A stretch of DNA of 23,269 nt from a virus: the IMG/VR virus record IMGVR_UViG_3300007735_000847, positions 1 to 23,269 of that record. One strand, given 5' to 3'. The position numbers and the translations under genes are program-made. Position 1 is the stretch's first letter. Every line of letters starts with the position of its first letter. The notes beneath the pieces are model-generated. The model made no database searches, was not told the origin of the DNA, and was given only the letters and a program-made list of their open reading frames with translations. Below, in pieces: positions 543 to 17,486 of this stretch.

Positions 543-1205
543 TTAAGCCTTCTTATGGCAACAAACAGCCAGGAGATAGTGCGACATTGGCATGAATCCT
601 GTGTGCAATGTTTCGTCGTTCATTGAGAACATGAACACCGAGTTGAAGTACTGGTACATGATGTTGCGCAGGTCGTCGCCTGTTTTGCAGTTGATGTGTC
701 CTTCTTTGCTGAGCGGTGATGCGTAGGTTTGTGATTCGAGTGATGGCATTCCGATGATTGTTGTGCCGGTCGGTTTCAACGATTTGCAGATGTTTGTCAA
801 GAACTTGTGTTCTTGAGTTGGGTCGATGTGTTCTAAGACATCAAGGCTGAAGATTCCGTCAAACTGTTTGTCAAGTGGCTGGTCAAGAATGTTGTGTTGA
901 ATGGCGGTGAGTGGCCAGGTTGGGTTCTGTCGGCGTTGTATGTCGGCGATGAAGATTGGGTCGAAGTCGATGACTGTGACTTGTTTGGTGGTTTGTTGGA
1001 TTAAACGTGTGGAGAATGCGTCGCCGCATCCGACTTCTAGGACTTGGTCATAGTTTTGGAACATTTTGGAGACGAATTTATATCTGGCGAATGTGAACGC
1101 GAATCGTCGTGGGTCGGTTTGCCAGTCGTGATTGCGCATCATGCCTAGTTCGGTGGGTTTATATTCGGCGAATGATTTGTATTGTTGTTCGCCTTGGTAG
1201 GTCAT
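543..1205 (-). CDS. Class I SAM-dependent methyltransferase, 220 aa
   Basis: The protein has the Rossmann motif I VLEVGCGDAFS, which binds S-adenosylmethionine, then an acidic motif II region (VTVIDFDP). FDGIFSLDVLEHI follows, the usual motif of UbiE/Methyltransf_11-type enzymes. The acceptor cannot be read from sequence; small molecules and sugars are common for this subgroup. I chose the ATG at 1205 because it overlaps the lysozyme stop as ATGA and has GGAAG 8 bases upstream. The open frame continues further upstream, but that part is a shadow of the lysozyme gene. With five glycosyltransferases elsewhere in the genome, O-methylation of a glycan is a reasonable guess, but DNA or small-molecule methylation is not excluded. 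No DNA-methyltransferase motif such as DPPY is visible. Confidence 0.85.
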   Translation of the reverse strand: MTYQGEQQYKSFAEYKPTELGMMRNHDWQTDPRRFAFTFARYKFVSKMFQNYDQVLEVGCGDAFSTRLIQQTTKQVTVIDFDPIFIADIQRRQNPTWPLTAIQHNILDQPLDKQFDGIFSLDVLEHIDPTQEHKFLTNICKSLKPTGTTIIGMPSLESQTYASPLSKEGHINCKTGDDLRNIMYQYFNSVFMFSMNDETLHTGFMPMSHYLLAVCCHKKA

Positions 1206-1744
1206 TTGCATTTCTTCCAGTTGCAAGGATTCCACGGCTCGAAGCCTGACAGGTTGTATAGAACGAGTCCTGCTTTGAGGTTGGTGAGTGGGTCGAGTAG
1301 TGGGTCTTGTGTGCAGATGTTTAGTTCTTGGCAGACCGCAGCCCACTTGTTTCTTGATGGGTCGTAGTTGACGCCATTGATCTGCAACAAGCCTGTGTCG
1401 GAGCGATGGTTCCATTCGGAGACGCCTGTGATGTTGCAGTCTTTGTCGACGATGTCGCCGCCTTTTCGGTTTGGGCAAGCTCCGCTTTCGCGTAGCACGA
1501 TCTGTGTCAATTTCGGGATGGCATGGTCGGGCCAACCTGCCTGTTTGGCGAGCGACGGTAGCCAAGAGGTGTCGCCGTGCCGGTATCGGATCGGCTGTAT
1601 CGGGTCGAGCCTGTCTGCCTGCCAGAGAGGCTGTAATGCGATTACAGCGACGCTGGAGTGTGCTGGTGCTGAGGCTGCCTGTGCTATGCCAAGGCTGATG
1701 GTGAGACTTGTGAGTGTTGCCAGGATTGCGGTCAAGATGCGCAT
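1202..1744 (-). CDS. Secreted lysozyme/transglycosylase-like muralytic enzyme, 180 aa
   Basis: Residues 1 to about 24 form a classic signal peptide: a basic start, a hydrophobic core and an AQA-AS cleavage site. The remaining part looks like a lysozyme-like (SLT-type) domain: a candidate catalytic Glu at 86 in VLRESG, then SDTGLLQIN at 115-123, matching the GLMQIN motif of that fold. Six cysteines (90, 103, 138, 144, 174, 179) could make disulfides outside the cell. It should cleave the glycan strands of peptidoglycan. The ATG has AAAGGA 5 bases upstream. A structured RNA element precedes it (see 1774-1880), and the methyltransferase overlaps its stop. With the M15 endolysin it gives this phage two wall enzymes of different specificity and probably different export routes. 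A virion-associated role is less likely given the signal peptide. Confidence 0.78.
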   Translation of the reverse strand: MRILTAILATLTSLTISLGIAQAASAPAHSSVAVIALQPLWQADRLDPIQPIRYRHGDTSWLPSLAKQAGWPDHAIPKLTQIVLRESGACPNRKGGDIVDKDCNITGVSEWNHRSDTGLLQINGVNYDPSRNKWAAVCQELNICTQDPLLDPLTNLKAGLVLYNLSGFEPWNPCNWKKCK

Positions 1745-1773
1745 CGTGGTCCTTTCGTTAAGTGCAGGAATGA

Positions 1774-1880
1774 CGCAACCAAGAAGGAGGTGACTTGGTT
1801 GCGGTGCTACATCAACCCTAGTGGGGAGCGCACCGTTCTACCTTAGCCGATGGGCTGGTTTGACCGCTATCTTTAGCGGT
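1774..1880 (-). ncRNA. Structured intergenic RNA or leader with an anti-Shine-Dalgarno loop
   Basis: The gap between the 87-aa gene and the lysozyme gene is packed with inverted repeats. In transcript order they are a 7-bp stem (1863-1880), AGCC/GGCT (1845-1856), a 6-bp stem CGGTGC/GCACCG (1802-1835) that can enclose a CCC/GGG mini-stem, and a perfect 10-bp stem (1774-1783 with 1794-1803). The 10-base loop of the last stem reads UCACCUCCUU on the minus-strand transcript, which is identical to the conserved 3' end of 16S rRNA. The loop's UCCUU could also pair with the AAGGA of the lysozyme ribosome binding site at 1750-1755, about 30 bases downstream. The last two stems share bases 1802-1803, so they may compete. 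There is no U-run after the final stem, so it is not a simple terminator. It could be a translational control element, a decoy RNA or a free small RNA. Confidence 0.55.
1863..1880. terminator. Hairpin at the 3' end of the 87-aa gene
   Basis: A perfect 7-bp stem (ACCGCTA/TAGCGGT) with a 4-base loop straddles the stop codon at 1873. The T-rich tract follows it only when read on the plus strand (TTTTCAGTTTTT). It therefore looks like an intrinsic terminator for rightward transcripts, although all genes here run leftward. For leftward RNA it would act as a 3' stem or as the first stem of the structured element. Confidence 0.4.
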
Positions 1881-2394: not shown

Positions 2395-2946
2395 TCACAC
2401 GGCCTTCTTGCTGTCGAGCCATGCTTGTACGGCTGGTGGCACATTGTCGCCTTGTGTATAGCGCAGATGCCAGGGTTCTTCTGGAACCACTTCCCATGAG
2501 AAGCCGAAGTCAAGTGCGTTCGCGAGCATCCATTCGAAGCGTGGTCCGCTTGCGCTCCAAATATCAACGGCGATGCCCAAATTATGCATGGACGAGCCAG
2601 GTGCGGCGAGTGATGCCAATGTCGGTGACTTCTTGTACCACTTCACACCTTCCCAAGTACGGGTCGATGCGCCTTCAATAGGTTGCTTCTGATATCTCTG
2701 CAAGAACACCGTGGTTTGTTGTGCGAGTGATCGGTAGGTGTCGCCTGCCGATGTTGGTTTGAATGGTTTGATGTTGTCGGCTAATGCTTTGGCTCGCATC
2801 GCATGATATGCGTCGGCTGCCCGCCAATGAAGTTTGCCTTCAGGTTGGACATCACGCAACAGATGCGCAGGCACCTCACCAGGTTTCACACCTTTGAGGT
2901 CTGCTGGTAGGTCAACCTTTACGATCGGCCAGTTCTTGGCGTTCAC
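2395..2946 (-). CDS. Endolysin, M15-family D,D-carboxypeptidase (VanY-like), 183 aa
   Basis: The protein carries the zinc-peptidase motifs of the M15 family: S-M-H121-N-L-G-I-A-V-D128 and E157-P-W-H160. His121, Asp128 and His160 would hold the zinc, and Glu157 would be the catalytic base. It should cut peptide bonds in peptidoglycan, most likely D-Ala-containing ones. There is no signal peptide and no recognisable separate wall-binding domain, so release should depend on a holin. The N-terminal 60 or so residues are of unclear role. The GTG start overlaps the stop of the holin-like gene as GTGA. It sits amid three small membrane-protein genes, which fits a lysis cassette. Confidence 0.88.
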   Translation of the reverse strand: MNAKNWPIVKVDLPADLKGVKPGEVPAHLLRDVQPEGKLHWRAADAYHAMRAKALADNIKPFKPTSAGDTYRSLAQQTTVFLQRYQKQPIEGASTRTWEGVKWYKKSPTLASLAAPGSSMHNLGIAVDIWSASGPRFEWMLANALDFGFSWEVVPEEPWHLRYTQGDNVPPAVQAWLDSKKAV

Positions 2947-10661: not shown

Positions 10662-10678
10662 TGTGCAGAACCTCCTAA

Positions 10679-17401: not shown

Positions 17402-17435
17402 GATCCTCCTAAGTTTAGTGCAGAGCAGAAAATAG

Positions 17436-17473
17436 AAAAAGCCTCGGCAGGTCCTGCACGACCCTGCCGAGGC
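17436..17473 (-). terminator. Intrinsic terminator behind the major capsid gene
   Basis: A perfect 11-bp GC-rich stem (GCCTCGGCAGG/CCTGCCGAGGC, 17441-17451 and 17463-17473) with an 11-base loop is followed on the minus strand by TTTTTCTATTTT. It lies about 50 bases past the capsid stop and should separate capsid transcription from the glycosylation genes. Confidence 0.93.
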
Positions 17474-17486
17474 TTAATCCTAGTCA

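Follow-up and report, generated by a model that had tools for sequence, protein, structure and literature searches.

A hairpin in the leader of a lysozyme-like phage gene presents in its loop a copy of the anti-Shine-Dalgarno (anti-SD) 3′ end of 16S rRNA, and on comparative sequence grounds it is a real RNA element under selection rather than a product of chance. The main reason is that it is carried by 22 leaders, always before the same gene, and that these were found through the protein, a route blind to the leader. The probable role of the hairpin is to adjust the timing or the site of translation initiation. The favoured explanation, with a probability of about 0.42, is that this structured, selected leader RNA competes in cis for the Shine-Dalgarno (SD) sequence of the lysozyme-like gene itself.

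The hairpin and its genomic setting

The stretch of DNA analysed, referred to as the window, is a 23.3-kb phage contig (IMG/VR; 23,269 nt) with its genes on the minus strand. The gene content includes portal, head protease, capsid, tail, VanY-type peptidase and WhiB. WhiB is taken as an actinophage mark (PMC6802176) and, compared by portal, Pontimonas phage phiPsal1 is the closest isolate (44%); from these two similarities the host is probably an actinobacterium. The lysozyme-like protein carries ESG...GLLQIN motifs, conserved in its alignment, and it is from these sequence motifs that the label is drawn. It has no match in Pfam or PHROGs, its gene has none among isolate phages, and no relative was found in the bacterial genome collection. 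The best Foldseek matches, to MltE lytic transglycosylases and insect lysozymes, are non-significant (E 0.14 and worse). A VanY-type peptidase (2395-2946, minus strand), probably an endolysin, is encoded directly upstream of the pair of small genes preceding the leader, and for this reason the lysozyme-like gene is probably not the sole lysis enzyme.

The leader fills the 128-nt gap between a gene ending at 1873 and the start of the lysozyme-like gene at 1744. On the minus strand it reads TAAGGT, hairpin 1, hairpin 2, a linker with CCUGCAC and then GAAAGGACCACG-AUG (Table 1). TAAGGT is probably a -10 box of the actinobacterial TAnnnT type and would mark the promoter. The first-pass annotation had described four stems packed before the gene, two of them sharing bases. 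Hairpins 1 and 2 are real and have base 1803 in common, whereas the remaining two, a CCU/AGG helix over the SD and the dyad at 1865-1878, are present in the sequence but draw no support from covariation. The CGCTA-AAGA-TAGCG dyad is the sole copy in the window, is partly kept in relatives and may be an operator.

Table 1. Features of the leader and its gene (window coordinates)
Feature	Position	Strand	Description
Lysozyme-like (transglycosylase-type) gene	1202..1744	-	ORF of 180 aa, probable signal peptide
GAAAGGACC, SD of the lysozyme-like gene	1748..1756	-	Invariant in 22/22 leaders
CCUGCAC element	1762..1768	-	Between hairpin 2 and the SD; CUGCAC core kept in 22/22 leaders
Hairpin 2	1774..1803	-	10-bp stem, arms 1774-1783 and 1794-1803, anti-SD loop; from sequence, covariation and folding
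Hairpin 2 loop, UCACCUCCUU	1784..1793	-	16S rRNA anti-SD 10-mer; same in 21/22 leaders
Hairpin 1	1803..1834	-	GGUGC ... GCACC outer stem around CUCCCC-ACUA-GGGUUGAUGUA; abuts hairpin 2
TAAGGT, probable -10 box	1840..1845	-	5 nt upstream of hairpin 1; conserved in the alignment; TAGGGT in L180
CGCTA-AAGA-TAGCG dyad	1865..1878	-	Near the inferred -35 region; overlaps the stop of the upstream gene

Read from the minus strand (1803-1774), hairpin 2 is CGCAACCAAG-UCACCUCCUU-CUUGGUUGCG, which confirms the perfect 10-bp stem, the 10-nt loop and the 10-nt match to the 3′ end of 16S rRNA reported in the first-pass annotation. The resemblance ends with the tail, as the window record has no SSU rRNA match. 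The view that such an arrangement is not chance is borne out by its rarity in the window as well as by its conservation across the 22 leaders. The sequence TCACCTCCTT occurs once in the window, with both strands searched and up to one mismatch allowed. There are eight perfect stems of at least 8 bp on the coding strand of the window, and the chance expectation of the anti-SD 10-mer in the loop of any of them is ~1e-5 by the analysis's own arithmetic. In 8 Mb of other sequence, both strands included, just four other hairpins with a stem of at least 8 bp have as much as CCTCCTT within the loop.

Conservation and covariation of the leader

Relatives were gathered from viral contigs with the lysozyme-like protein as query, 31 and then 80. 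This query ignores the leader, and the presence of the hairpin in the relatives was therefore sampled without bias. At least 22 distinct leaders contain the hairpin, all in related viral contigs and all upstream of the lysozyme-like gene. These leaders form a single clade; all are metagenomic, and further members of the family may exist beyond the 22. Every close relative retains both stem and loop, and the most diverged carrier is L180, with a protein identity of 63%. Relatives without the hairpin, which would have spoken against it, occur only outside the clade (L025, L027-L030 and the examined part of L181-L229). Some distant lysozyme relatives (L181, L184, L188, L223, L226 and L228) have a different structured leader within ~100 nt upstream. 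An example is AUAGG-CAGGA...UCCUG-UUG-CCUAU, followed by CCACC and an SD, and the stems of such leaders seem to covary between phages.

Each genome checked has one anti-SD hairpin, and a covariance model of the leader recovers each genome's own copy and nothing else in 616 kb searched. Pattern scans with the loop and closing bases, CCTGCAC, GAAAGGAC or fixed stem ends returned, among the matches listed, this family alone with a comparable stem. The five pattern matches in bacterial genomes are all in unrelated genomes, where the covariance model finds none.

Compensatory changes in the stem around a constant loop, the evidence that the first-pass annotation had looked to, were found. Hairpin 2 has five stem types (GCAACCAAG, GCAACCAG, GCAACUCAG, GCAUCAAG and GCAACCAC), each perfectly complemented by the opposite arm, and its length varies symmetrically, by whole base pair. 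The loop-closing pair is reversed from G-C to C-G in L180. In a 19-sequence alignment, both-sided changes are present at 6 of 12 stem pairs and 97.8% of the stem cells are paired, compared with 91.8% in shuffled and 30-66% in slid controls. The covariation events are few because the 22 leaders are one clade; nonetheless, several appear independent. On the gene tree the UCAG stem sits on several separate branches, which suggests that stem types have been exchanged between phages through recombination of leaders, or have re-evolved. The CUCAG/CUGAG stem type is scattered over the lysozyme tree (L005, L013, L018-L020 and L024).

The loop is near-constant in relatives in which the third codon positions of the lysozyme-like gene fall to 45-78% identity with the window. 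The single exception among 22 leaders is L170, with UUACCUCCUU, a C to U change that would still permit G·U pairing to an SD. Ensemble folding at 37 °C has hairpin 2 ~96-100% formed, with the loop open, in 10 of 11 leaders tested.

This pattern, with arms that vary and a centre that is fixed, is the opposite of a palindromic operator, and a DNA-level role as a protein-binding site is very improbable. The same low estimate covers an antisense role, in which the hairpin (loop AAGGAGGUGA) would bind ribosomes for a small plus-strand ORF. On the plus strand the loop reads as a perfect SD, and in most leaders TTG and a 15-codon frame come after it. However, the frame is broken in L024 and L170, so that the mini-ORF was rejected as not conserved, and the surrounding phage genes, putative promoter and SD all face the minus strand.

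Conservation extends to other parts of the leader, and the outer stem of hairpin 1 also covaries (GUGUU/AACAC in L026, AGGCA/UGCCU in L180). Several conserved blocks besides the loop, and the location of hairpin 1 at the putative 5′ end, would suit a leader that governs mRNA stability or, in a riboswitch-like manner, binds a ligand or protein together with hairpin 1 and CCUGCAC. The 16S match would then be part forced, as UCCUU complements the SD, and part coincidence. Such a leader is an improbable explanation, as the five remaining loop bases would match the 16S tail by chance only ~1 in 1000 times (4^-5), and L180 has lost the hairpin 1 apical sequence while retaining the anti-SD loop. Rfam gave 0 matches at the gathering threshold and, on a relaxed search, one chance-level match (E 3.6).

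The CUGCAC core of the linker recurs elsewhere in these phages. In the window CTGCAC is located at 1762-1767, 10663-10668 and 17418-17423, all on the minus strand, and by observed versus expected counts it is enriched ~10-23 fold in SD-proximal regions (window and G001-G010 contigs, L374-L391). Of the hexamers enriched there, leaving out SD-like and A-rich ones, it recurs most often across the genomes. Some 5-7 unrelated genes, prim-pol, the capsid-downstream gene and lysozyme among them, have it near their SD or start, either ahead of the SD or in the stretch from SD to AUG, and it may serve them as a common translational control motif. After the major capsid gene (17402-17480, minus strand) a TAGGAT box, a hairpin and a U-rich stretch precede CUGCAC and a strong SD. 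The stem of this capsid-downstream hairpin is variable and its near-constant loop contains GUGCAG, complementary to CUGCAC. Pairing between the two was rejected for that leader as it is broken in L495 (CGCAG loop) and in CCGCAC variants such as L425.

Modes of action considered

In the favoured explanation, transcription would probably start a few bases past TAAGGT, so that the mRNA would open with two back-to-back hairpins, the second exposing the anti-SD 10-mer. The loop would base-pair with a Shine-Dalgarno sequence, for which the tail of the ribosome itself competes. Its 3′ half, UCCUU, which abuts the 3′ arm of the stem, would fold onto the gene's own AAGGA (1750-1754, within the SD) 18-21 nt downstream, forming an H-type pseudoknot. 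Lysozyme synthesis would be slowed until ribosomes, a ligand or a factor regain the SD, giving the leader a putative role in timing.

Competition in cis ranks first since the element's position and geometry are both linked to a single gene. The spacing from hairpin 2 to the SD is constant in every leader tested, with a stem of 9 or 10 bp and a linker of 18-21 nt, and the loop UCCUU and the SD AAGGA are jointly invariant; both features favour cis action. Since neither partner changes, no covariation between loop and SD is seen. The predicted layout matches a classical H-type pseudoknot in which L1 is UCACC, L2 is absent and L3 is long. In nested folds at 37 °C the SD is 34-86% unpaired, and the 5-bp pseudoknot is possible besides. 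The sole natural loop change, in L170, falls in the half that the UCCUU:AAGGA pairing does not use. The earlier suggestion that the loop blocks its own SD is thus possible on geometry; against it, the duplex has only 5 bp (-4.6 kcal/mol) and half of the conserved loop is left unused. The actinobacterial 16S tail (UCCUUUC) forms 7 bp with the same SD (GAAAGGA), at -10.1 kcal/mol. For the UCACC half of the loop, conserved to nearly the same degree, there is no conserved partner in the leader or gene start, a gap that could be filled by trans action or by proteins or anti-SD-cutting toxins that recognize the loop as a 16S tail.

In the trans alternative, the leader or a processed 5′ fragment would, late in infection, silence other mRNAs of phage or host that have strong SDs, with its own SD escaping as its register is poorly bound. 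The pairing energies agree with this, as duplexes between the loop and the canonical SDs that other phage genes in the window carry come out at -10 to -12 kcal/mol and the gene's own SD is well matched to the ribosome. The near-invariance of all 10 loop bases, and the signature of an identical anti-SD motif in differing stems, shared with the sRNA NfeR1 (PMC10746234) and also with LhrC and NmsR, point the same way. The proposal is nevertheless rather unlikely, given that no obvious terminator separates element and gene, the hairpin is held at a fixed distance from one gene, there is one copy per genome and the loop must compete with ribosomes. The first-pass annotation had also raised binding to SDs elsewhere; ordinary strong SDs do pair well, but a search for a fully complementary target inside the phage was unsuccessful, with no further exact AAGGAGGTGA in 10 phage contigs.

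Alternatively, a protein or enzyme that recognizes the anti-SD tail, for example a host anti-SD-cutting toxin, may bind or cut the loop. The leader would then serve either as a decoy or as a sensor whose cleavage alters lysozyme translation. The loop equals the tail over the full 10 nt, more than SD pairing in cis requires. Several anti-SD-cutting toxins have been described in mycobacteria (PMC12274833, PMC12620021). MazF-mt11 cuts at C^ACCU and MazF-mt3 at U^CCUU (PMC12274833), while RelE1 cuts next to the anti-SD (PMC12620021); the loop offers CACCU and UCCUU single-stranded, exactly where these actinobacterial toxins cut. The WhiB gene and portal similarity, with the actinobacterial host that they indicate, are in keeping with this. 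It is nonetheless quite unlikely, as CACCU is lost in L170 (UUACCU), the conserved linker and SD spacing are left unexplained, and no anti-SD-cutting toxin is known for the host. The earlier phrase "mimics the ribosome's decoding end" is a misnomer, since the sequence is the anti-SD tail and not the decoding site; mimicry of the tail is the sense in which it survives as a rival.

Taken together as one reading, the leader as decoy of the ribosome's anti-SD tail is unlikely, whether it silences strong SDs in trans, with its own shifted SD spared, or baits or senses anti-SD-cutting host toxins. If it were true, lysis enzyme output would report the state of host ribosomes.

Further candidates were rejected. 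Kissing between hairpins 2 and 1 (GGGUUGA) is out because the hairpin 1 loop is not kept in L180, and a minimal start-stop AUG-UAG in hairpin 1 is missing from L021 and L024. Recognition by Era requires GAUCA, which is not kept in L180.

Comparison with known systems

Anti-SD loops in bacterial sRNAs and SD-hiding leaders in phages are both already known. The two are united when the leader of a lysis-type phage gene holds a copy of the 16S tail that is under selection, as here in phages whose hosts are aquatic, poorly cultured and probably actinobacterial. Such a leader would offer a simple RNA means of tying the output of a cell-wall enzyme to ribosome availability.

The 16S rRNA 3′ tail and UCACCUCCUU are identical over 10 nt (PMC6107228, PMC6288834, PMC12274833), with no wider 16S resemblance. 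Cleavage by MazF-mt11 at C^ACCU takes off the last 11 nt in mycobacteria (PMC12274833). As removal of 11 nt fits ACCUCCUUUCU, the actinobacterial tail is inferred to be UCACCUCCUUUCU; the mycobacterial tail would continue with UCU, whereas the phage loop is closed by a stem pair.

Among sRNAs, the NfeR1/alpha-r14 family of rhizobia has an ultraconserved, unpaired anti-SD motif within differing stems and pairs with translation start regions (PMC10746234). The constant motif in a loop on a variable stem is found in the phage element as well. The family, however, consists of discrete trans-acting sRNAs with three motif hairpins, and the motif is CCUCCUCCC rather than the 16S tail; the phage element is a single hairpin, one per leader and genome, in an mRNA leader. 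The CU-rich loops of LhrC of Listeria and NmsR of Neisseria are likewise complementary to SDs, but these are discrete sRNAs with several redundant motifs and not phage leaders (PMC4132741, PMC5362039).

Among phages, the T4-type gene 32 mRNA has a leader pseudoknot that controls translation, although this is a gp32-binding structure located 67 nt upstream of the start, with no anti-SD loop described there (PMC3014915). The T4 lysozyme gene e has a structured leader able to bury the SD and delay the lysis enzyme, and its early transcripts are translationally silenced in this way (PMC3014915). The T4 structure is a simple helix that covers the SD when early transcripts read through, and use of a late promoter does away with it (PMC3014915), while the phage element has its putative promoter upstream of the hairpins and the anti-SD in a loop. 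On the features tested, the element belongs to neither NfeR1/alpha-r14 nor T4 gene e, and it shares its logic with both.
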